Assembly (NCBI RefSeq): GCF_023264675.1
Contig: NZ_JAHFVG010000023.1
Coordinates: forward strand, 1 to 64,000
DNA: 64,000 nt
From: Rhodococcus sp. (in: high G+C Gram-positive bacteria)
Lineage (GTDB): Bacteria > Actinomycetota > Actinomycetes > Mycobacteriales > Mycobacteriaceae
Reading direction: 5' to 3'
Position numbers and translations under genes: made by a program
Notes under the pieces: model-generated
What the model saw: the letters and a program-made list of their open reading frames with translations, nothing else
Database searches by the model: none
Told to the model about the DNA's origin: nothing
In this document: positions 1,214 to 45,762 of the stretch, in pieces
Layout: each line of letters starts with the position of its first letter
Numbering within the stretch: position 1 is the first letter of the stretch

Positions 1214-1924
1214 ATGACGGAGATCCAGAAGCCGCGGCGTAGCCGTGGACTGAAGTCCATGGGCGCTGCAGTTGTAGCCGGCGCTTCGGTTGTCGGCCTG
1301 GTGCTCGGTACGGGTACCGCGTCCGCCGCTGTCGACAGCACCAACACCGTCGTCGATGCCAATGGCAACGTCATCACGGTGTCGCTGTCCGACACCTTCA
1401 TCAACAGCGTTCCGCCGCTCGACGGAAACCCGCTCACCCGTGAGTGGTTCGCCAACGGTGTTGCAGGCTGGACCGTCACCGGTCCTGACGCTGACGACTT
1501 CGAGGGCACCGTAGCCATCGGCTACCAGGTCGGCTACCCGATGAGCCTCGGTGGATCGATCACCTTCGGCTACACCACCCCGAACATCAGCCTCGGTGGT
1601 TCGCAGACCTTCGGCGCCGACTCGGGTGGTTCACTCAACACAGGTTCGGAAAGCACCTACAGCACAAGCGATCTTCTTCCTTCGCTCGGTTTCTCGGCTG
1701 AGATCGCTCCCGGACCCGGCATCGTCGACGCCACCGCTGCCTCGGGCAACGTTCAGGGCACCGAGGGTGACGCTGCAGGCGCTTCGGGCACCATCCAGAT
1801 CGCCAACGCTCACGGCACCGCGACCGGCATCCTCGGCAACGTTCGCGTTCGCCCGTACGTCTCGGTCACCAGCTCCACCGGCGACGTCGCAGTCACCTAC
1901 GGCAACCCCTGGGTCTTCAACTGA
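1214..1924 (+). CDS. MspA-family mycomembrane porin
   Basis: A 236-residue secreted protein. The N-terminus has twin arginines and lysines, a hydrophobic core and an Ala-rich cleavage site (TASA-AVDS) near residue 36, as for Sec export. The mature part follows MspA closely: LTREWF, then a GPDADDFEGT-like block, then GYQVGYPMSLG, SYTTPNISLG-like strands, SNAHGT-like IANAHGT, and the C-terminal TYGNPWVFN that corresponds to the end of MspA. MspA forms an octameric channel that admits small hydrophilic nutrients through the mycolate outer membrane. It has no cysteine, as in MspA, unlike the two paralogues downstream. An AGGAAG ribosome site precedes ATG 1214. A strong hairpin follows the stop. 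Confidence 0.93.
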   Translation: MTEIQKPRRSRGLKSMGAAVVAGASVVGLVLGTGTASAAVDSTNTVVDANGNVITVSLSDTFINSVPPLDGNPLTREWFANGVAGWTVTGPDADDFEGTVAIGYQVGYPMSLGGSITFGYTTPNISLGGSQTFGADSGGSLNTGSESTYSTSDLLPSLGFSAEIAPGPGIVDATAASGNVQGTEGDAAGASGTIQIANAHGTATGILGNVRVRPYVSVTSSTGDVAVTYGNPWVFN

Positions 1925-1972
1925 TCTCGATCAGTTGATCCACGCTTCATCCCAGCGTTAATGCGCTGAAGT

Positions 1973-2012
1973 AGATCGGGCCCGTCCGGAATTCTCCGGG
2001 CGGGCCTGATCT
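1973..2012 (+). terminator. 18-bp hairpin after the porin gene
   Basis: Arms at 1973-1990 and 1995-2012 pair over 18 bp with two G-U pairs and a four-base ATTC loop. No long T run follows, so this is a terminator or RNA-stabilising stem typical of GC-rich actinobacteria. It lies 49 bases after the porin stop. Confidence 0.75.
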
Positions 2013-2086
2013 GCGTCTCCATACCCTTCACGATGCGTGCACTCGCGGCCTTCGAGCCCTGGTTGCGCGAGAAATGGCTGAAACTG

Positions 2087-2515
2087 ATGCGTTCCATAGT
2101 GATTCCGGTTGTCGCGTTCTCTGCGTTGGTGGCCCTGGCTGGCTGTAGCAGCGACTCCGGTGGCGATTCCTCCGGCGCCAACGCGGACGCGTGCACCCAG
2201 TTCGCCGCAATACACAACGAGCTGACCGCGTTGACGGTTGCCGGCCCGAACGGCGCTGCCGATGTGGAAAAGTGGACGTCCGACAAGAATGCCGCCATCG
2301 CCAAGTTGTCGCCCTTGGCCGAGCAGGCCACCGACTCCGTCAAGGAGTCCATTCAGACTGTCGTCACAGCACTTCCGGCGGATTCGCTCGAGCTGACAGA
2401 ACCGGACAGCGAGTCCGGTCAAGCCTTCGTCGACAATTCGTCTGCGGTGGCGTCCTCGTGTGACAGTGATGGAACAACCATCACGTTGGCCGACTTCCCG
2501 CTTCAGGCATTCTGA
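2087..2515 (+). CDS. small lipoprotein of unknown function
   Basis: A 142-residue protein starting MRSIVIPVVAFSALVALAGC. The hydrophobic stretch and lipobox (LAGC, Cys at residue 20) predict export and lipidation. A Ser/Gly/Asp-rich linker follows, then an alpha-helical domain of about 100 residues with one further Cys pair (DACTQF, SSCDSD). ATG 2087 is chosen because it places the signal peptide at the N-terminus; an upstream in-frame ATG at 2033 would bury it. I do not recognise the domain. Its place between porin and mscL genes suggests an envelope role. Confidence 0.75.
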   Translation: MRSIVIPVVAFSALVALAGCSSDSGGDSSGANADACTQFAAIHNELTALTVAGPNGAADVEKWTSDKNAAIAKLSPLAEQATDSVKESIQTVVTALPADSLELTEPDSESGQAFVDNSSAVASSCDSDGTTITLADFPLQAF

Positions 2516-2639
2516 GACCTTCTCCGAAACCGGTCACAATCCGGATACAGCAGTTAAAACCGTCTAATTGACTGTGATCTGCATTACAATAGTTGCCATT
2601 CCGTAGTTCGATCCGGGTTCGGCGACTATTGGGGCAATC

Positions 2640-2960
2640 ATGTTCAGACGCAGTGTGATCGTTGTGGGTTTGGTGTGTGGCGCAGGATTCGGCTTCAGTT
2701 CGACGGCGGCGGCGTCGATACCGTCGGTGCCGCCCTCGTCCACCGTTGGCTTGTCCGAGTCGGCGGCCACGGATGAGTTGTCCGACGGTGGGTACAGTCC
2801 GCGGGTTATCTCACGCAATGGTGGTGGACCGGACTGTGTGGTGTTCAATCAAAGCGCCGTCGCCGACTATGGGCAGTGGGTGGAGGATTCCGAAACGTCG
2901 GGAACCTACACCGACGATGACGAATATTCGGTCTTTTTGTCGGTGAACTGCACGAATTGA
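2640..2960 (+). CDS. small secreted protein, unknown function
   Basis: 106 residues beginning MFRRSVIVVGLVCGAGFGFS, a signal peptide with probable cleavage after AAA-S near residue 25. The mature part is acidic and Ser/Thr-rich and contains two cysteines (GPDCVVF and SVNCTN) that could form one disulfide. No family recognised. It converges on mscL across a long bidirectional terminator. Confidence 0.65.
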   Translation: MFRRSVIVVGLVCGAGFGFSSTAAASIPSVPPSSTVGLSESAATDELSDGGYSPRVISRNGGGPDCVVFNQSAVADYGQWVEDSETSGTYTDDDEYSVFLSVNCTN

Positions 2961-3007
2961 TCGACCTAGCATTACGGGCACTCAACAATTCGGCAGCTAT
3001 TGAGACA

Positions 3008-3056
3008 ACAAAATGCCCGTTACTGCCTGATTTTCAGGCGGTAACGGGCATTTTGT
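3008..3056. terminator. bidirectional terminator between the secreted-protein gene and mscL
   Basis: A 23-bp stem (3008-3030 with 3034-3056) closed by a three-T loop, with a single G-U pair. The stem base has A and T runs on both sides, so it gives a U tract on either strand. It sits exactly between two convergent genes. Confidence 0.92.
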
Positions 3057-3066
3057 CAGTTGACGA

Positions 3067-3546
3067 TCAAGCCTTGGAATGCTGGCCGCCGCTGGAATCG
3101 TCGGAATCTCCGATGGCCTCGCCGCTGCCGCCGGTGTCATCGGCAGGCGTCGAAAGCTTCTGTCCAGGGTCTGTTCCGCCCGCCAGGATGTCGCGAATCT
3201 GCACCAGAACGTCGACGTCGCTCAGCTCCTTGTCGGGCTGACTCACGAAGCGCTTCTTGGCGGTATTGACCGGCAGGATCAGGACGAAATACACGACAGC
3301 CGCGATGATGATGAAGTTGATGATCGCGGTGATCACAGCGCCGACATTGACGAAACTCTCAGCGCTCGAGGTGATTTGGAAGCCGAAGCCGTATTCGTTC
3401 GAGCCGCCGATTGCGGCGACGAGTGGGTTGATGATGTTGGTGGTGAAGGCAGTCACGATCGCTGTGAACGCTGCACCGACGACCACCGCTACAGCGAGAT
3501 CGACCACGTTTCCGCGTAGCAGGAAGTCCTTGAAACCCTTGAGCAT
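3067..3546 (-). CDS. mscL: large-conductance mechanosensitive channel
   Basis: A 159-residue membrane protein that opens under membrane tension to release solutes during hypo-osmotic shock. The N-terminal amphipathic helix MLKGFKDFLLRGNVVDLAVA is the family signature. TM1 follows (VVVGAAFTAIVTAF), then a periplasmic loop, TM2 (ITAIINFIIIAAVVYFVLIL) and a long acidic, Ser/Gly-rich cytoplasmic tail. GAGGAGG lies just before ATG 3546; a longer frame to 3666 lacks support. Same place relative to moaB as in M. tuberculosis. Confidence 0.97.
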   Translation of the reverse strand: MLKGFKDFLLRGNVVDLAVAVVVGAAFTAIVTAFTTNIINPLVAAIGGSNEYGFGFQITSSAESFVNVGAVITAIINFIIIAAVVYFVLILPVNTAKKRFVSQPDKELSDVDVLVQIRDILAGGTDPGQKLSTPADDTGGSGEAIGDSDDSSGGQHSKA

Positions 3547-3785
3547 GAGCCCTCCTCTAGTTTGTTCCGTCCAGCTGAAACCGGCGTCTGGTTCGAGGCT
3601 AGTCGAGATGGCTGCGATCGCCGGGGAGGCGGAATAGTTGAAAATGCGTGTATGTGAGAGGTACATACAAGATTCATTCGACCTTGTTAATGACTACGGA
3701 CCATTCGTCCCGTATCCTTCCCCGAAGAATGAGTCTCGGTGACACCATGTCGAGGCGTCGGATGCATTGCTCCACGAGGGGAACC

Positions 3786-4454
3786 ATGAACAAGTCTCGC
3801 TTTTCCGCGCTGCGTAAGGTCGGGCGGATTGCCGCGCTCGGTGCCGCTGCATCCATGGCGATCGGCCTGATGTCCACCGGTGCCGCGAACGCCGAAACGT
3901 TTGTCCCGCTCCCCAACGGTGAGAAGGTCGCGGGCCCGTACAAGATTGCGCATTTCGACGAGTCCGCCAAGGTGGCTCCGCAGATCGCGTTCAACGGCCT
4001 CAACCGCAATGCCTGGGCAACCGGGACAGCGCTCTCCGAGGTTCCCGAAGGGGCTACCGGAACGCTCAAGACCGGCTACCTCGTTGGTTGCCAGTTGGAC
4101 ATGGATGACCTGAGCTTCGGATTGGACCTCGGCGCCGGGATCGAAGGCGGCAACACCAACATCATCACGTTGTTCCCCAACCTCTTCAACATCGGCGGTG
4201 AAGGCGAGACCACCAACAAGATCGAGGGTGGAGTTTCCTTCGACGTGCCGTTGAAGGACCGTGAAGTTGCTGCTGTCGAGATCGCGTCCAAGGACGTGGC
4301 AGGACCGATCACCGCTGTGCAGTACCAGGATGTTGCAATTTCGGTGACGAACTGCGGTGGCTATGCGCAGGCACGCTCGTACACGACGCTCGAACTCACC
4401 GGCAATTACCGCTACAAGGGCACGCTGTACGGCGCGCCGTTCAGCATCGGCTGA
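3786..4454 (+). CDS. MspA-family porin, cysteine-containing type, copy 1
   Basis: 222 residues with a signal peptide (twin-basic start MNKSRFSALRKVGR, hydrophobic core, cleavage GAANA-ETF). The mature protein has FVPLPNGEK, NRNAWATG, GTLKTGYLVGCQ and a C-terminal YGAPFSIG, a pattern found in rhodococcal and nocardial members of the MspA porin family. Two cysteines (LVGCQ, VTNCGG) probably form a disulfide and distinguish it from the classical MspA at 1214. GAGGGG precedes ATG 3786. Its neighbour 52 bases downstream is a paralogue with the same ending. Classical MspA similarity is weaker here, so pore formation is inferred from family. Confidence 0.82.
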   Translation: MNKSRFSALRKVGRIAALGAAASMAIGLMSTGAANAETFVPLPNGEKVAGPYKIAHFDESAKVAPQIAFNGLNRNAWATGTALSEVPEGATGTLKTGYLVGCQLDMDDLSFGLDLGAGIEGGNTNIITLFPNLFNIGGEGETTNKIEGGVSFDVPLKDREVAAVEIASKDVAGPITAVQYQDVAISVTNCGGYAQARSYTTLELTGNYRYKGTLYGAPFSIG

Positions 4455-4506
4455 CGTCATGCCGTCCAACACGACTTTGCAGGACCTTACGAGGGGAACA
4501 AGTAAG

Positions 4507-5229
4507 TTGAAGAGCAACAAGACTGCCGCGGCCCGTATCGCCGCGCTCGGTGCCGTAGGAGCGATCGCGCTGGGCTTCTGGTCGGCAGGCGCGGCCAGCG
4601 CCGATACGTTCGTGCCGCTGCCGGACAACGAGATCAGCAAGACTCTCATCGACGGAACTGTGGTGACGGTCAAGGGCTTCGGTCAGAGTGGCCTCATCTC
4701 GCCGTCGATGGGTGCGACACCCACGCAGCGCAACGTCTGGGTCACCGGCAATTACACGGTCGAGACGTCCAATCCCGGTGGGGGATCCATCGAACCCGGC
4801 TTCCTTGTCGGCTGCCAGGTCGATTTCGCGGCCGGCGTCACCGGCGGCCTCGAAGGCTCGTTCGGCCAGGGCAACACCGTCGAACTCGAGCCCGGCACCA
4901 CAAATCTGAAGATCAATCGCACGCAGCCCAACACCTACGACATCGGTGCGGGCGTCAATCTGGATCTCGCGCCCGGTCAGCTCAACGACATCAAGCTCGT
5001 GTCCGACGAGACCGACGCCAAGATCGACGGCGTCACGGTGGCAACGGACACGTCCAACAGCTTCGACTTCTCGGGTAACGGCGGCGGATACACCTACGCC
5101 GACGAGACACTGAGCGTGTCCGGCTGCGCAGGGTTCGCCGAAGCGCGCTCCTACGTCAACGTGACCATCGAGAACGACGCGGTGACATCCACTGTCACGC
5201 TGTGGGGAAACCCTTTCAGCATCGGCTGA
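4507..5229 (+). CDS. MspA-family porin, cysteine-containing type, copy 2
   Basis: 240 residues, paralogous to the preceding gene: shared AARIAALGA signal core, DTFVPLPDNE, RNVWVTGNY, GGSIEPGFLVGCQ, SGCAGFAEARSYV and the ending WGNPFSIG. It keeps the same two cysteines. The TTG start at 4507 is chosen because it lies after a GAGGGG motif placed as in copy 1 and yields a normal signal peptide. ATG 4459 would add 16 residues and is the alternative. Tandem duplication with divergence in the central loop region suggests two channel variants for different solutes. Confidence 0.82.
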   Translation: MKSNKTAAARIAALGAVGAIALGFWSAGAASADTFVPLPDNEISKTLIDGTVVTVKGFGQSGLISPSMGATPTQRNVWVTGNYTVETSNPGGGSIEPGFLVGCQVDFAAGVTGGLEGSFGQGNTVELEPGTTNLKINRTQPNTYDIGAGVNLDLAPGQLNDIKLVSDETDAKIDGVTVATDTSNSFDFSGNGGGYTYADETLSVSGCAGFAEARSYVNVTIENDAVTSTVTLWGNPFSIG

Positions 5230-10901: not shown

Positions 10902-11765
10902 ATGCCCAACTCGATCATCTGGATCGGTCTGGTCGCAGTCTGGGTGTTCGTCCTGCTCCCGATGATGATGAGCAAGCGTCCACGGATCATGCAGACATCC
11001 GATATCGCCCTCGCTACCCGCGTACTTCATCGCGGCGGCACGAAGAAACCCGTGCGTGGACCGGCGTCCGGGCATGCGAGCGATCCTGATTGGCGACCCG
11101 AGTACGACGAAAGGGTGTCGGCGCCTGCCAGCGTCGTCTTCGGACGTACAGAGCCGAGCACCGATCGTGCCGGGCGCGAAGCGTCGAACATTGACGAGGC
11201 TTCGAAATTCAACGCGGAGGACCCGATGGACACTCACGCAGAGACCGACACCGAAACGGCCGATCGGGACGAAAAATTTCAGCGGGACGAGGCCCAGCGG
11301 GACTACGTGCCCAACCGTCGTGGACGCGGAGGATTCGACCCCGAAGCCGATGCCATCGCACGGGCGGCTCGGTACTCCTTCCGGCAGCGTGCGGTGCTGG
11401 CGCTGGTGTTCGCGGCCATCACTTCCGCTGCCCTGGCTGTCATCCTGACCCCGATGCTCTGGTGGGTGTGCGGACTGTCCGTCGCCGCCCTCGCGGGATA
11501 CATGTACTACCTGCGGCGGCAGGTTCAGATCGAGCAGGAAATTCGCCGCAGGCGCATGACCCGCATGGGACGCTCGCGCCTCGGCGTCGAGTCGCGCACC
11601 GACGACGAGCTCGAACTCGTACCGCAGCGGCTTCGGCGTCCGGGTGCCGTCGTGCTCGAGATCGACGACGAGGACCCCGAATTCGATCACCTCGACCACT
11701 ACGAGGAGCCGTTCCAGGCATCGGTCCCGACCGACAACGACGTCCGTCGCGCATCGGGGGCCTGA
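10902..11765 (+). CDS. glpR: GlpR-like membrane protein, Glp receptor of the divisome
   Basis: 287 residues. One N-terminal membrane segment (residues 4-22, SIIWIGLVAVWVFVLLP), a 130-residue polar, acidic and probably disordered region, then two adjacent membrane helices (about 162-205) and an arginine-rich, then acidic, cytoplasmic tail. The topology and the glp-rimJ neighbourhood match GlpR of corynebacteria, which recruits Glp to the septal membrane and helps position the divisome. AAGGAGAG precedes ATG 10902. Assignment rests on topology and context. Confidence 0.78.
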   Translation: MPNSIIWIGLVAVWVFVLLPMMMSKRPRIMQTSDIALATRVLHRGGTKKPVRGPASGHASDPDWRPEYDERVSAPASVVFGRTEPSTDRAGREASNIDEASKFNAEDPMDTHAETDTETADRDEKFQRDEAQRDYVPNRRGRGGFDPEADAIARAARYSFRQRAVLALVFAAITSAALAVILTPMLWWVCGLSVAALAGYMYYLRRQVQIEQEIRRRRMTRMGRSRLGVESRTDDELELVPQRLRRPGAVVLEIDDEDPEFDHLDHYEEPFQASVPTDNDVRRASGA

Positions 11766-11837
11766 GGTTCGGAGAGCGCCTGACCCTTTGATAGGGTTTG
11801 CGCAGCGGTTCGAAGGCATCTGCTCGAACAATCGCTA

Positions 11838-11913
11838 GGGGCTGTGGCGCAGTTGGTAGCGCGTCTCGTTCGCATCGAGAAGGTCAGGGGTTCGATTCCC
11901 CTCAGCTCCACCA
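11838..11913 (+). tRNA. tRNA-Ala (anticodon CGC)
   Basis: The sequence folds into a complete cloverleaf: acceptor GGGGCTG/CAGCTCC, anticodon stem TCTCG/CGAGA around TTCGCAT with anticodon CGC, T arm AGGGG-TTCGATT-CCCCT. The third acceptor pair is G3-U70, the alanine identity element. CCA is encoded (11911-11913). It reads GCG codons. Confidence 0.97.
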
Positions 11914-11918
11914 CCGAA

Positions 11919-11949
11919 AAGGCCCGGCCGACAATGTCGACCGGGCCTT
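11919..11949. terminator. hairpin terminator after tRNA-Ala and after the 35-codon minigene
   Basis: AAGGCCCGG-C-CGAC at 11919-11932 pairs with GTCG-A-CCGGGCCTT at 11936-11949 with one mismatch and an AAT loop. It serves the tRNA on the plus strand and the converging minigene on the minus strand. Nineteen bases (11921-11939) are identical to the hairpin at 12262-12280. Confidence 0.85.
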
Positions 11950-11972
11950 ACTGTGCCCCTGGGGCCAGCTGA

Positions 11973-12080
11973 TCAAGCGGAGAGCGATCCCAGCAGCTCG
12001 AGGATCGGGAAGTCGGTGACCGAGCTTCCGGTGGTGCTTCCGGTGGAGAGAAGGCTGGAGATGAAGGCTGCGAGATCCAT
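11973..12080 (-). CDS. 35-residue peptide, copy 1 of a tandem pair
   Basis: Translation is MDLAAFISSLLSTG (residues 1-14), then STTGSSVTDF, then PILELLGSLSA. AAGGAG lies eight bases before the ATG. It has no charged signal sequence. Residues 1-11 and 25-33 would form short amphipathic or hydrophobic helices around a Ser/Thr/Gly-rich centre. It aligns with the minigene at 12309: MD[LI]xA[FW]IxS[LI][LI]xTGSxxGSS[VL]xD. Size, lack of signal peptide and the Ser-rich centre recall the PorA/PorH channel peptides of corynebacteria, but no sequence identity is claimed. Too short for standard gene callers. Confidence 0.75.
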   Translation of the reverse strand: MDLAAFISSLLSTGSTTGSSVTDFPILELLGSLSA

Positions 12081-12254
12081 TGGGGAAACTCCTTGTTTCA
12101 AGGGGGTGGCCTGGTTTCGGTGGCTGCGTAGCGGAGTGCTGCTCAACCGAAAGTATTTTTACCGGACGAAAGCCAACTCCGTTGGAGTTTCGAACAAAAT
12201 TTTCCGGCAATCGTCCAAGGGCATCCCCGGACCCGCTCGACCGCCCTCTCGCGA

Positions 12255-12295
12255 CGAATGAGGCCCGGCCGACAATGTCGGACGGGCCTCATTCG
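12255..12295 (-). terminator. hairpin terminator after the 29-codon minigene
   Basis: A 19-bp stem (12255-12273 with 12277-12295) with one mismatch and an AAT loop. It ends 13 bases after the stop of the minus-strand minigene. The core GGCCCGGCCGACAATGTCG is shared exactly with the hairpin near 11930, indicating that gene and terminator duplicated together. Confidence 0.85.
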
Positions 12296-12308
12296 TACGC
12301 TGTCAGGG

Positions 12309-12398
12309 TCAGAGACGCCCGAAGATGCTGTCGATCAGCGAGCTGCCTGCGGAGCTACCGGTGGTGATGATGCTGTCGATCCAGGCGAAGATGTCCAT
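12309..12398 (-). CDS. 29-residue peptide, copy 2 of a tandem pair
   Basis: Translation is MDIFAWIDSIITTG (1-14), then SSAGSSLIDSIFGRL. AAGGAG lies ten bases before the ATG. It is paralogous to the 35-residue peptide, with the invariant TGSxxGSS centre and the same hydrophobic spacing before it. It ends in a basic FGRL. A perfect 14-bp palindrome lies 31 bases upstream of the start. Conservation of coding pattern between the two copies, including conservative changes (L/I, F/W, V/L), argues that both are translated. Confidence 0.75.
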   Translation of the reverse strand: MDIFAWIDSIITTGSSAGSSLIDSIFGRL

Positions 12399-12934
12399 TG
12401 CGGAGAAGCTCCTTGATGCGTCGGCGAAGTCTTGTACAAGACAGGTGGCACCGCTGATTGCCGAACCACCGTATGTATTGATACTGCATCGAACCAAGCT
12501 TCGCCACCGGTCCGTTCGGCGCAAAGCGAGACTCCGACGGTATTCGACGAGAGATTTCAGCAATTCGGTAAGAATTCGTGCCGTCGAATCCTCGATTCCA
12601 CCGAGAAGATCGCCGATAACTGGGTGCGGTCCGCGGGCTCCGCAGTATCCGACCGCGGATTGGGTATTGCATCCCGAATTTCGTCCGCGGAATTGTTTCG
12701 TCGAGCCCGCAATGCCGGTGGAGCATCGATCATCGGGACGCCTCGTCGAACGTGCCGCGGGCCTCCGGCAGACGGATCGGCGACGATCCGACACGGGTAT
12801 GTGAGCCGAGGCCGTCCCTGACCGGTAGTCTTGCCATCTAGTTGGTCATCTGGTCGTAGGTCGGCGTCTACTGGGGAAGCGTCACCCCGGCTGCGGAGAA
12901 CATCGCTGCAGCCCCGAAATTTGTGGAGTGGTGA
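12399..12934. other. non-coding stretch upstream of the peptide gene
   Basis: About 540 bases. It holds the ribosome binding site of the 29-residue peptide (AAGGAG at 12409-12414, minus), the palindrome at 12429-12442 and presumably divergent promoters for the peptide gene and the GyrI-like gene at 12935. Open frames here (for example 12432-12821) look random in composition. Confidence 0.5.
12429..12442. promoter_or_regulatory. perfect 14-bp palindrome, candidate operator
   Basis: GTCTTGTACAAGAC reads the same on both strands. It lies 15 bases before the Shine-Dalgarno sequence of the 29-residue peptide gene, where a repressor could block transcription. Confidence 0.5.
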
Positions 12935-13381
12935 ATGTCGTTCGAGATTGTCGACCTCGAAGAAACGTGGGTCGCGGGTCTTCCCGTTCGTAGCCCCAAG
13001 CGCGCGCTCGGTCGGCTCAACGACCCGGCGCTGGACCAAGCATGGTCTTCGGTTCTGAAACAGGACATCGGCGGCCCACTGGCCTCGGTGTACACCGATT
13101 TCGCGCCCGGTATCGGGTCCTACAACACCCAGATCGTCGGGTACCAATGCTCGGCGTTGAACCAGGTCACCCGGGGTCACCTCGTCGCGAAAGTGCCTCG
13201 CGCGCGCTACGCCAAATTCTCCGCCGTCGGCTACTTCCCCGACGTCATGACGCGGTTGTGGCAGCAGATCGACCACGCTGAAGAGCAGCATGAGATCACG
13301 CGAACGTTCACCGCTGACTACGAGTGTTACCCGCATGCCTACAAGATCGATCTCTACCTCTCGGTCGAGCAGTCCGCGTGA
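12935..13381 (+). CDS. GyrI-like effector-binding protein, copy 1
   Basis: 148 residues forming a single ligand-binding domain of the GyrI/AraC-effector type: EIVDLEETWVAGLPVR start, VYTDFAPGIG-YNTQIVGYQ, a helix around FPDVMTRLWQQI and the closing strand YKIDLYLSVE. Such stand-alone domains bind small hydrophobic ligands or shield targets from them. There is no DNA-binding part. It overlaps the next gene, a paralogue, by four bases. Confidence 0.78.
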   Translation: MSFEIVDLEETWVAGLPVRSPKRALGRLNDPALDQAWSSVLKQDIGGPLASVYTDFAPGIGSYNTQIVGYQCSALNQVTRGHLVAKVPRARYAKFSAVGYFPDVMTRLWQQIDHAEEQHEITRTFTADYECYPHAYKIDLYLSVEQSA

Positions 13382-13812
13382 CACACAGGGTGACGGCGCG
13401 AAGCGCTGAGCTGTTCGGTGGTCTCGTGGCTCCGCGGATCGAACCGGGTGCCGAGACGAGCACCAGCGAGCTCTTCCGGTTCCTACGCGAACGTATCCGC
13501 GACCATTTCGCCGACACCGTCGAGGTGAGCACCGTGTTCGTCCCGGACGAGCACGGCATCTACAACGCCTTGGTGGCTACTCCGTACGCATCGCCGGCCG
13601 ATGTTCCTGTCGGCCAGGTATTCGTATCGGTGCCGAGCGGGGTGTACGCGGTGTTCGTCCCCGACGGCAGTCTGCGAGACCCCATCGAGGACGTCTGGAC
13701 GCAGGTCGAGGAAGCCACGGCAAACGGTGAGTTATTTCGGGCTTATAAAGAAGACATCGAAGTCGTTACAATATCCGGCGAAGTGGAACTTTATATTTCG
13801 ATAGTTATCTGA
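13378..13812 (+). CDS. GyrI-like effector-binding protein, copy 2
   Basis: 144 residues. GTG 13378 overlaps the upstream TGA (GTGA), so translation is coupled. The domain pattern repeats that of copy 1: VTARSAELFGGLVAPR, STVFVPDEHGIYNALVA, GVYAVFVPDGS, EDVWTQVEEA and the final strand EVELYISIVI. The last 80 bases are notably AT-richer than the surroundings. The closely following TetR regulator of gamma-butyrolactone-receptor type suggests a ligand-sensing set. Confidence 0.75.
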   Translation: MTHRVTARSAELFGGLVAPRIEPGAETSTSELFRFLRERIRDHFADTVEVSTVFVPDEHGIYNALVATPYASPADVPVGQVFVSVPSGVYAVFVPDGSLRDPIEDVWTQVEEATANGELFRAYKEDIEVVTISGEVELYISIVI

Positions 13813-14001
13813 TCCGACTGAATGCGTCACGCATTTGTCACTCGAAGATCACAATACAGACAAACATAAGGTTAGTATTATCCTGCGCAACCGGACCGAC
13901 GGCGGGTTACAGGGAATTCGAGACGACGGATTTACCCGTTCGAGTTGGTCGTACACGGCGGCGTCGGTGTCAGGTAGGCAACTGAGCAGGGGTGATCATT
14001 C

Positions 14002-14679
14002 ATGGTTAGGCAACTGAGGGCGGAAGCCACGCGCGCCGCAGCATTGCGTGCAGCGGCGGATCTTTTTCTCGATGTCGGGCACGCAAATGCAACATTGAGC
14101 CAGGTGTCAGCACAGTCCGGAGTCACGAAGGGCGCGCTGTACTTCCATTTCGCATCGAAGGAAGAGCTCGCGCGCGCCATCGTCGACGAAGGTCACGAAC
14201 GCGTCTCCACCGCATGTGCCGGACTGGTGGACAGTAGGTCGCCCGCCCTCGAATCGGTCATCGGGATCTCGTATTCGGTGCTCGAGCTCGCTGCCTCCGA
14301 TCCTCTGGTGCGCGTGATGTACCGCCTCCAGATGGAAATCGACGGGTCCGAGACAGCTCGCGGCAGCGTGTTCGGTACCTGGGGGAACATCTTCGAGCAC
14401 CTGTTCGACCGTGCCATCGAGCACGGCGATGTGGCCGACCACCTCGACTCCGGCAACGCCGCGCTTCTGGTCTGCGAGATGCTCGCAGGGGTCCTGATGG
14501 TGTCCGAAGCACAGTCGACCCTCGAAAGCGCGCCGTCGCGCATGGAGAAGGTCTGGCACACCGTCCTGCCGTCTCTCGTGCCGCCGAACAAGCTCGGATA
14601 CTTCCGGGAATTCGCCGCGCGCAGCCTGTCGAGTTTCGTGCCCTCCTCGGAACTGACCGCGGAGTCCGTGCACGTCTAG
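14002..14679 (+). CDS. TetR regulator, gamma-butyrolactone receptor type
   Basis: 225 residues. The N-terminal HTH carries the ArpA/ScbR hallmark VTKGALYFHFASKEELARAIV (residues 46-66). The C-terminal ligand domain ends in the typical ...MEKVWHTVLPSLVPPNKLGYFREFA region. Members repress target genes until a gamma-butyrolactone-like signal binds. No AfsA-type synthase is present in the window. A paralogue lies at 62228. The gene begins with ATG 14002; the 189 bases upstream are AT-rich and may hold its autoregulatory operator. Confidence 0.86.
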   Translation: MVRQLRAEATRAAALRAAADLFLDVGHANATLSQVSAQSGVTKGALYFHFASKEELARAIVDEGHERVSTACAGLVDSRSPALESVIGISYSVLELAASDPLVRVMYRLQMEIDGSETARGSVFGTWGNIFEHLFDRAIEHGDVADHLDSGNAALLVCEMLAGVLMVSEAQSTLESAPSRMEKVWHTVLPSLVPPNKLGYFREFAARSLSSFVPSSELTAESVHV

Positions 14680-26769: not shown

Positions 26770-28167
26770 ATGGCCCTCATGCCCGTTACAGAATCAATGT
26801 TCCTGATCGCGGAGTCCAGAGAGCATCCGATGCATGTCGGTGGGCTGCAGCTGTTCGTTCCACCGGGCGATTCTCACGAACTTGCCCAGCAGATTCACGA
26901 AAAGTTCACCACCGGAGAGGTACACGAGCTGTTCCGGAAACGCCCCGGACGGCCCGTCAACGTGATGGGCGCTCTCACGTGGTCGCGTGAGGACGATATC
27001 GACTTCGAGTACCACGTCAGACGCGTCGTGCTGCCCTCACCCGGGCGGATTCGCGAGCTGTTCCAATTCCTCTCGCTCAATCACAGCACTCCACTCGATC
27101 GCTACCGGCCGATGTGGGAGCTGCACATCATCGAAGGCCTCGCCGACGGCCGCATCGCGCTCTACACCAAGGTCCACCACTCGTTGGTCGACGGCGTCTC
27201 GGCTCTCAAGCTGATGATGAACACCCTGACCACCGATCCCGAGGACCGAAACGGCGTCGCCACGTGGGATCCGTCGCTCTTCCGCGCAAAGAAGAAGCCC
27301 GCTGCCGAGGCTCCTTCCACGCTGGATCGCATCAAAGGCGGCGCGACGCTCGGCCTCGGTCTCGCCGGAGATCTGGTGGACTTCGTGCCTGCCGCCGCGC
27401 GAATCGGTGTGCGCGCCATGCGAAGCGAGGGCGCTCAGCTCCCGCTGCGCGCGCCGCGCACGATGTTCAACGTGCCGATCGGCGGAGCCAGACGGTTCGC
27501 TGCCGAAAGTTGGTCCATCGCGCGAATGACCAAGGTCGCCAAGGAATTGAACGTCACGCTCAACGACATCATCTGCGCGATGTGTGCGGGAGCCCTCCGC
27601 GGATACCTGATAGATCAGGACGCGCTTCCCGAAACTCCGCTGATCGCCATGGTTCCGGTGTCGTTGCGCAAACCGGGAGAAGACAGCGGCCCCGGCAACT
27701 CGGTCTCGACCATCCTGTGCAATCTCGGTACCCATGAATCGGATCCGCTGACCAGACTGGCGTGCATCACCGATTCGACCGCCAAGGGCAAGGACATGAT
27801 GCGAGAGCTCAACACTCTCGAATCGTTGGCCTTCGGCGCCGCCACGATGCTGCCACTGCTCTTCGGGCCGGTCCCCGGGTTCGTCAACAACACACCGCCG
27901 CCGTTCAACGTCATCATCTCCAACGTGCCAGGCACGAAAGAGGACATGTACTGGAACGGCGCGAAACTCGACGGCATCTACCCGGCGTCCATCGTGTGCG
28001 ACGGCATGGCGCTGAACATCACCGTCGCCAGCAACGGGGATTCGATGAACTTCGGGCTCATCGGGTGCCGCCGGAGCGTCCCGCATCTGCAGCGGATGCT
28101 GACGCACCTCGAGAATTCGCTGGAGGAGTTGGAGAAGGCAGTGTCGGCTGCTGCTCCGTCGGCCTGA
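26770..28167 (+). CDS. wax ester synthase/diacylglycerol acyltransferase
   Basis: 465 residues. The catalytic motif HHSLVDG (about residue 136) is intact. The N-terminal TESMFLIAESREHPMHVGGLQLF and the C-terminal NVIISNVPGTKEDMYWNGAKL are family blocks. It makes triacylglycerol or wax esters from acyl-CoA at the inner membrane. Rhodococci carry many such genes; this one is at the metG border. Confidence 0.95.
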   Translation: MALMPVTESMFLIAESREHPMHVGGLQLFVPPGDSHELAQQIHEKFTTGEVHELFRKRPGRPVNVMGALTWSREDDIDFEYHVRRVVLPSPGRIRELFQFLSLNHSTPLDRYRPMWELHIIEGLADGRIALYTKVHHSLVDGVSALKLMMNTLTTDPEDRNGVATWDPSLFRAKKKPAAEAPSTLDRIKGGATLGLGLAGDLVDFVPAAARIGVRAMRSEGAQLPLRAPRTMFNVPIGGARRFAAESWSIARMTKVAKELNVTLNDIICAMCAGALRGYLIDQDALPETPLIAMVPVSLRKPGEDSGPGNSVSTILCNLGTHESDPLTRLACITDSTAKGKDMMRELNTLESLAFGAATMLPLLFGPVPGFVNNTPPPFNVIISNVPGTKEDMYWNGAKLDGIYPASIVCDGMALNITVASNGDSMNFGLIGCRRSVPHLQRMLTHLENSLEELEKAVSAAAPSA

Positions 28168-28169
28168 AG

Positions 28170-28307
28170 CAGCACTCCTGCAGCATGAATGGACCCTTGT
28201 AGCCGTCTAACCGTTGCCGTGGTCCATTGATGCTGGCTGGAACCAGCACTCCTGCAGCATGAATGGACCATCGCAACCGTCTAACCGTTGTGATGGTCCA
28301 TTCATGC
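28170..28307. repeat. 74-bp tandem repeat with hairpins, GCATGAATGGACC family
   Basis: Two copies (28170-28243, 28244-28307) begin CAGCACTCCTGCAGCATGAA. Copy 2 folds into a 21-bp stem (28257-28277 with 28287-28307) with one G-U pair and a nine-base loop. Copy 1 has a shorter stem (28183-28195 with 28221-28233). The element separates two convergent genes and contains the metG stop codon, so it is a strong bidirectional terminator candidate. Confidence 0.85.
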
Positions 28308-45089: not shown

Positions 45090-45178
45090 CGGTGTTTCAG
45101 CCTTCCGGGGAACCCGGTTTTTCAGCCCCCCCCGGGGAACCCGGTTTTTCAACCCCCCCGGGGAACCCGGTTTTTCAA
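45090..45178 (+). terminator. three tandem intrinsic terminators in a 26-27-bp repeat
   Basis: CCGGG-GAA-CCCGG followed by TTTTT occurs at 45105-45122, 45132-45149 and 45158-45175; periods are 27 and 26 bp. A degenerate fourth unit precedes them. All U tracts serve the plus strand, downstream of the acyl ligase. The pth stop codon lies at the edge. Confidence 0.92.
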
Positions 45179-45762
45179 CGCGGATGGACCTGGTTCTGCG
45201 CCGCTTCGAGGCCGACGCGCAGGACCAACTCCGCGGCATCGGCGGCCTCTTCGCAGATCACCCCGAGGTCCTTGCGTTCGGCAGCCGAGAACGGTTTGAG
45301 GACGTAGGCGGCCGCGTCCATACGGCCGGGCGGGCGCCCGACGCCGACGCGGACCCGCAGGTAGTCCTTGGTGGACAAGTGCTGGGAGATGGACCGAAGG
45401 CCATTGTGTCCGCCTTCGCCGCCGCCCAGTTTGAGCCTGATGGAGCCGAAGTCGATGTCCAGTTCGTCGTGCACCACAACAACATTGGCGGGTTCGACGG
45501 AAAAGAAACGGGCGAGCGCAGCGACGGGCTGACCGGACAGGTTCATGAATGTTCGCGGTTTCGCGACGATGACGGATCGGTCGGCGAGGCGCGCTTGAAC
45601 GATGTCCGAGTTCGACTTCTTGTGCGAGGAGAACTTGGCACCGATCCGGCCGGCCAGCACGTCGGCGACCATGAAGCCGACGTTGTGGCGAGTCGTCTCG
45701 TACTGCGATCCGGGGTTACCGAGACCGACGATCAGCGCAGTGTCCGCATTCACGGTGTTCAT
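45175..45762 (-). CDS. pth: peptidyl-tRNA hydrolase
   Basis: 195 residues. [21 protein letters not shown] carries the conserved Asn and catalytic His. FMNLSGQPV and [11 protein letters not shown] contain the further substrate-binding Asn and Asp. It releases tRNA from stalled peptides. Pairing with rplY is conserved in actinobacteria. Confidence 0.97.

Follow-up and report, generated by a model that had tools for sequence, protein, structure and literature searches.

The closest described systems are the PorA and PorH proteins of Corynebacterium. PorACur (37 aa) and PorACj (40 aa), which bear the PorA name in the literature, form cell-wall channels, and the translocation of PorACur is ascribed in the same report to an unidentified mechanism (PMC5944148). 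In C. glutamicum, PorH (57 residues) and PorA (45 residues) are encoded in an operon and assemble together, and at least one of the two partners must be mycoloylated; the modified sites are Ser15 of PorA and Ser56 of PorH (PMC12632848). According to another account, O-mycoloylation in this species occurs on Ser, less often on Thr, in flexible stretches rich in Ser, Gly and Ala, with several sites often close together and no strict consensus (PMC11066868). The porA/porH locus lies in most species between groEL2 and the polyphosphate kinase gene (PMC5944148). The channels described for Rhodococcus, in two species, are of the MspA type (PMC9233653).

Our analysis started from a 64,000-nucleotide stretch of Rhodococcus DNA, hereafter the window, in which the first-pass annotation had pointed out two minigenes, here called A and B, as a tandem pair encoding signal-less, Ser/Thr-rich peptides. 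The positions, the strand and the AAGGAG ribosome sites were confirmed exactly (Table 1), and sequence comparison supported the kinship of the two peptides. Searches of the whole genome of the strain (6.38 Mb, 109 contigs) retrieved B with A as the query at E 0.072, and A with B as the query at E 0.047. Despite these modest values, a chance similarity is very unlikely given that the two genes are only 228 bases apart. No further copy of either was found in the 6.38 Mb at the sensitivity used. The window contains ten ATG ORFs of 20–60 codons with a strong ribosome site, and only A and B passed a composition filter (either free of K/R/H, or containing TGS with one K/R at most), a filter drawn to the make-up of A and B themselves. 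Judged from the sequence, A and B are real protein-coding genes, with transcription and translation predicted, and are paralogues that arose by duplication, each forming a self-contained unit of promoter-like box, ribosome site, 29–35 codons and hairpin.

Table 1. Features of the peptide locus and of the porin genes in the window
Feature	Position	Strand	Remarks
Peptide A gene	11973-12080	minus	35 codons + stop; translation MDLAAFISSLLSTGSTTGSSVTDFPILELLGSLSA
AAGGAG ribosome site of A	12089-12094	minus	8 bases ahead of ATG
Promoter-like box of A	12153-12162	minus	GTAAAAATAC; 82 bases ahead of ATG
Hairpin behind A	11919-11949	minus	stem of 14 pairs; in the gap separating A from the end of the convergent tRNA-Ala
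Peptide B gene	12309-12398	minus	29 codons + stop; translation MDIFAWIDSIITTGSSAGSSLIDSIFGRL
AAGGAG ribosome site of B	12409-12414	minus	10 bases ahead of ATG
Promoter-like box of B	12475-12484	minus	GTATCAATAC; 86 bases ahead of ATG
Hairpin behind B	12254-12296	minus	from folding against shuffles
tRNA-Ala(CGC)	11838-11913	plus	convergent neighbour; marks the home site, outside the peptide system
MspA-family porin ORFs (PF09203)	1214-1924, 3648-4454, 4357-5229	plus	from Pfam

The comparison of gene copies from sister genomes points to a genuine family under purifying selection. Across the 13 distinct A and B sequences, M1, D2, T13, G14, S15, G18 and S19 are invariant, and the frames are intact in all 14 fully sequenced copies. 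For the ten intact copies of A, pS is 0.41 against a pN of 0.125 over the first 30 codons (45 pairs, which are not independent), a roughly 3.2-fold per-site excess of synonymous over amino-acid-changing differences; the variable columns are distributed over the codon positions as 16/3/22 of 29. A synonymous bias among sister genomes, the lack of which had been set beforehand as a refuting test, is therefore present for A. The conservative character of the substitutions, also part of the earlier description, holds for A; for B, few copies were available and the bias they show is weak (four copies, six pairs, pS 0.27, pN 0.20; variable columns 13, 11 and 13 of 27). In view of this weak contrast, the coding case for B rests on the intact frames, the ribosome sites and the invariant residues shared with A. 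The opposite reading, that the ORFs are fortuitous or that the locus produces a regulatory RNA with a hairpin, could draw on the strong hairpins behind both genes, but it is scarcely credible when set against the codon-position pattern of A, the 14 intact frames and the ribosome sites.

The family was traced in 37 genomes of one genus, taken to be Rhodococcoides on the basis of four named carriers, which are Rhodococcus/Rhodococcoides strains and include Rhodococcoides kyotonense KB10. A profile of the 13 distinct A and B sequences matched 16 of these genomes at E 0.1 or better, 11 of them strongly (E 2e-19 to 3e-13). With G004, whose copy of A is interrupted by ten N (E 0.02), the genomes with A, B or both number 12 of 37. 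The other weak matches are exported proteins in G002 and G016, a long frame in G005 and a sequence broken by stops in G001. Intact A is present in ten genomes (G000, G003, G010, G013, G019, G025, G028, G032, G033 and G035) and B in four (G000, G003, G025 and G030). Since A and B occur together in just three of the 12 carriers (G000, G003 and G025), the idea of an obligate two-component system is not supported.

Outside the genus, searches of 397 order-level genomes from 85 genera and 401 family-level genomes from 31 genera, two sets which overlap and contain members of the genus, gave no strong match; the best weak matches reached E 8e-4 (order) and 0.008 (family). The order search gave 27 weak matches at new loci (L054–L080), 16 of which were translated, together with five from the genus search and three from the family search. 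In none of these translations except the N-broken copy of G004 (L046) is the core preceded by a correctly spaced MD. L054–L056 (E 8e-4 to 2e-3) share LLSTGSSAGSS without such an MD; L054, the one of the three followed further, is antisense to a longer exported-type ORF. The other weak matches are partial (E 0.02–0.1). In viral contigs, none of 15 pattern matches was confirmed, and a plasmid collection gave no match. Thus the relatives anticipated in Rhodococcus and Nocardia exist in sister genomes of one genus, but no strong match was seen elsewhere. The open-access papers searched yielded no description of the family, and Pfam and NCBIfam no model, which bears out the earlier impression of novelty. 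The family is apparently undescribed and, at this sensitivity, apparently restricted to the genus.

The chromosomal setting is largely constant. The conserved locus comprises a nucleotidyl transferase, MoeA, a GNAT acetyltransferase, an ORF of 287 aa (10902-11765), tRNA-Ala and the peptides, beyond which lie two Cass2-domain ORFs and then a TetR ORF. The 287-aa ORF, which has no match in Pfam and which we take to be SepX/GlpR-like, is found in 37 of 37 genomes of the genus, and the tRNA-Ala was matched in 29 of the 30 loci read, with or without a peptide. Among the four Pfam-scanned flanking ORFs in the window (10902-14679), none is a porin, mycoloyltransferase or secretion gene. The peptide stands beside the tRNA-Ala in eight of the 30 loci and 2–4 kb further along in G032 and G025; altogether, ten of the 12 carriers keep the peptide no more than about 4 kb from this site. 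In G013 and G033 it lies elsewhere, at a second site of A (L177 and L178) with a GGDEF/EAL protein and two ORFs without a Pfam match; an ABC-transporter ATPase and an ABC-2 type membrane ORF are about 2–4 kb from the peptide there. In G003 (L181), a B-like gene is located between the 287-aa ORF and the tRNA-Ala, with A behind the tRNA, so that the tRNA splits the pair.

The DNA just behind the tRNA-Ala (window 11914-12935; L103–L116) is a variable spot. When a branch of 14 genomes was aligned, this DNA proved very different in most species and similar within a few small groups. On a locus tree built from about 1.9 kb of the 287-aa ORF and upstream sequence in 30 of the 37 genomes (the other seven being without a strong match), the pattern of presence requires seven changes, six of them forced by well-supported branches, and 30 of 500 shuffles need as few. 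The gene is accessory on this pattern. An ancestral site with repeated loss seems the simplest history, simpler than a mobile unit, with gain also possible.

The earlier claim that each gene has its own hairpin terminator stands as far as the hairpins themselves are concerned, the folding z against shuffles being -3.8 for the A stretch and -6.4 for the B stretch; yet both U-tracts are short, a consensus terminator scan returned no terminator at either hairpin, and the hairpin of A, because of its position between the gene and the convergent tRNA-Ala, may serve both. A leader peptide or attenuator was considered and discarded, as there is no co-transcribed gene: A runs into its hairpin and the convergent tRNA, and B into its hairpin and A's own box.

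Each of the 15 gene copies, that of G004 among them, has a promoter-like box fitting [GA]TANNNATA[CG] 62–86 bases ahead of the ATG, a count that is a description because the pattern was drawn from those same 15 sequences. In eight of the 15, the box reads GTATCAATAC or GTAACAATAC, and further conserved bases lie about 8 and about 25 bases upstream of it. At the home site, scanned up to about 1.4 kb behind the tRNA-Ala, the box occurs in all eight peptide-bearing stretches and in none of the 22 peptide-less ones; its presence with the peptide follows by construction, and its absence from the peptide-less stretches is the informative part. The 22 include G001, scanned from a fixed point as it has no exact tRNA match, and G032 and G025, whose peptide is too far along to fall in the scanned stretch and which therefore count as peptide-less here. 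In its long form, the box has a single exact site in the genome of the strain, that of B itself, and five sites at three mismatches, against none for a backward control. A sigma-70 model, which covers that class only, detected no site on either strand of 11800-12950, and the Rfam search returned nothing except the two tRNAs. Two repeats were recorded elsewhere in the window. At 28166-28307, two near-identical tandem units of 74 bases (1.9 copies, 86% match) have ends that look inverted (CAGCATGAATGGACCAT ... ATGGTCCATTCATGCTG) and may form strong hairpins; at 45105-45179, a 26-base repeat, CCGGGGAACCCGGTTTTTCAACCCCC (2.8 copies, 95% match), has in each unit a short inverted repeat leading into a T run.

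The composition of the peptides limits what they might do. They are 28–39 aa long across the copies; K, R and H are absent from each of the ten A copies, and one such residue occurs in three of the four B copies. The N-terminal 12 residues are amphipathic (moment 0.32 for A and 0.40 for B), the maximum 19-residue Kyte-Doolittle mean is 0.99, with no hydrophobic stretch of transmembrane length, and the N-terminus is acidic and devoid of basic residues, so that no signal peptide is recognised in it. The modulin or toxin pair that had been suggested is weakened, since basic residues and hydrophobic stretches of transmembrane length are both nearly absent. Type I toxins have a single transmembrane helix with a basic tail. 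A and B are tiny, hydrophobic, tandem and accessory and lie in a variable chromosomal spot, as a toxin of a type I toxin-antitoxin pair might, but with neither that helix nor that tail, and with no antisense promoter on either strand of 11800-12950 under the sigma-70 model, such a role is very improbable. A secreted signal, a leaderless bacteriocin or a modulin-like membrane-active peptide would also be small, leaderless, partly amphipathic and patchily distributed in a variable spot, and the ABC-transporter ATPase and ABC-2 type ORF some 2–4 kb away in G013 and G033 could be read in its favour; we nevertheless consider it improbable, given that the peptides are anionic and nearly free of K and R, and that the four Pfam-scanned flanking ORFs of the window's home site include no transporter or immunity-type gene.

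Many bacterial micro-proteins are intracellular or plasma-membrane regulators, and A and B might likewise bind a membrane protein or an enzyme inside the cell. The lack of a signal peptide agrees with this, and the separate promoter-like box suggests regulated expression. No partner gene was seen to co-vary with the peptides, however, as the 287-aa ORF (37/37) and the tRNA-Ala (29/30) are there regardless of them, and the Ser/Thr/Gly core was judged unusual for a binder of membrane proteins. We therefore rate a regulatory role as rather unlikely.

The presence of three mycomembrane porins nearby was another element of the first-pass annotation. The three ORFs do belong to the MspA family, but they are 6.7–10 kb from A, with other genes between. 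MspA genes recur at the corresponding distance in L051 and L052, but none was found there in L053, from the B carrier G030, whose stretch is long enough to include the position; the L050 stretch is too short to do so. As the MspA genes are kilobases off and missing at the matching distance in G030, the porin neighbourhood is not evidence of function. An MscL-type channel ORF (3067-3666, minus) is grouped with the three MspA ORFs in 1214-5229 of the window.

We then compared the peptides with PorA and PorH. NCBIfam searches with A, B and one orthologue gave no family even at E values as high as 10, and neither the cut-off of the PorA model (NF033925, 50 bits) nor that of the PorH model (NF033938, 30 bits) was reached by the peptides. 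In the order search, PorA/PorH matches over or near the cut-off came from genus g27, taken as Corynebacterium, with the named C. glutamicum control matched; two other order genomes gave weak partial matches, and the five genomes of the peptides' genus in the order sample (G000, G005, G010, G030 and G034) gave none. Even among the 151 genomes of g27, PorA was matched at E 0.001 or better in 28 and over the cut-off in only five. From g27 we assembled a PorA-like set of 29 sequences (27 loci plus L142 and L144), mostly below the PorA cut-off and with script-assigned start codons. In this set, 17 of 29 begin with M[D/E], and in 21 an [LFA]S[STNDAGE] motif places its first Ser at residue 11–18, comparable to S12 in MD..FISSLLSTGS. 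The N-terminal layout of the peptides, with an acidic residue after the M, some ten hydrophobic or Ser residues and then STG, is thus similar to that of many of the 29. An HMM of the 29 sequences scored the peptides at -2.4 to 2.8 bits, with 32–415 of 500 shuffles as high, and an HMM of four PorH sequences at -0.7 to 1.6 bits, with 32–352 of 500 shuffles as high. In the reverse direction, scoring the 29 PorA-like sequences with the peptide profile put five above at least 94% of their own shuffles, the best of them above 295 of 300, and the rest stayed within the shuffles. In profile-profile alignment with hhalign, column-shuffled controls scored as high in 23 of 100 cases for PorA and in 13 of 100 for PorH. 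Membership of A and B in either family is not supported by NCBIfam, by the HMM scores against shuffles or by the profile-profile comparison. What survives of the proposed PorA/PorH likeness is an analogy of size, missing signal peptide and Ser/Gly core, with no homology at the profile level. From this resemblance without homology we infer a way of working like that of PorA and PorH, outside their membership by the tests made.

A second resemblance concerns exported proteins. The weak matches in G002 (E 0.003) and G016 (E 0.01) are exported proteins with the mature N-termini GSSTGSSLIDDPIGTL and GSSTGSGLIDDPIGTI, respectively. Relatives occur in 23 of the 37 genomes at E 0.001 or better (partial or doubtful in G023 and G024), including one in the genome of the strain (G000:C69:115739-116299; family L117–L137), and no Pfam family exceeded its cut-off for L117–L137. 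Most of the 20 aligned relatives have variable, GS-rich repeats such as GSAILDSGSSILDG at the mature N-terminus instead. The short similarity to peptide B may be convergent and, being weak with 37 genomes counted, could be due to chance; it would fit a common envelope-anchoring chemistry.

Weighing these observations, we propose, with a probability of roughly 40%, that A and B are signal-less micro-proteins of the mycomembrane which work like PorA and PorH and are probably O-acylated in the core. Like PorA and PorH of Corynebacterium, the peptides would be exported with no signal peptide and would take up a place in the mycolic-acid outer membrane, where a mycoloyltransferase would O-acylate the invariant TGSxxGS core, a candidate site which fits the Ser/Thr among Ser/Gly/Ala described for C. 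glutamicum. The amphipathic N-terminal and hydrophobic C-terminal segments would pack in the lipid, and oligomers might form a small anionic channel or an envelope-packing element. Given that only 12 of 37 species carry the peptides and that MspA-type porins are also present, the role would be accessory and not that of the main porin: an environment-dependent addition to envelope permeability. The same anatomy would serve an exported, perhaps acylated envelope micro-protein that forms no channel and acts as a lipid-packing, surface-property or scaffold element. With 28–39 residues and a Gly/Ser hinge, the peptides are at or below the size of the smallest channel peptides (37–40 aa), and their patchy presence fits a surface trait; we hold this possible, if unlikely. 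Returning to the PorA/PorH-like reading, a broader version would be that Rhodococcoides evolved its own signal-less mycomembrane micro-proteins independently of PorA and PorH, mycoloylated at TGSxxGS and acting as an accessory channel or envelope module beside MspA, with the same Ser/Gly-type sequence anchoring larger exported proteins; we offer this whole picture tentatively and regard it as doubtful.

If the peptides do reside in the mycomembrane, signal-less lipid-modified micro-proteins are no peculiarity of Corynebacterium, and A and B would serve as a second set of substrates, unrelated to the first, from which the features read by the export route and by the protein mycoloyltransferase could be worked out. 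Regardless of location, they represent a clear and compact micro-protein family under selection for which no family model or paper was found.

To conclude, A and B can be placed beside four known groups. With PorA (NF033925), they share the tiny size (34–69 aa in the 29-sequence set, 37–45 aa in the proteins characterised in the reports cited), the absence of a signal peptide, the frequent M-acidic start and a hydrophobic N-terminal segment running into a Ser motif; they differ in lacking the C-terminal stretch that mostly ends in LIGL or LLGL in the 29-sequence set, in their locus and in the absence of a significant profile match. PorH (NF033938), likewise without a significant profile match, resembles them in the MD start of the four sequences compared, the lack of a signal peptide and, for the upstream peptide, the position in a tandem pair. 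PorH and PorA form an operon, whereas A and B each have their own box and hairpin, and the groEL2/polyphosphate kinase locus of the former stands against the tRNA-Ala/Cass2 home site of the latter. Among the GS-rich exported proteins, the N-terminus GSSTGSSLIDDPIGTL resembles TGSSAGSSLIDSIFGRL of B, but these proteins run to about 175–185 aa and have, besides a signal peptide, a C-terminal domain that is conserved. The MspA porins (PF09203) occur in the same window and represent the channel type of two Rhodococcus species; they are large exported proteins, with no sequence kinship to the peptides.
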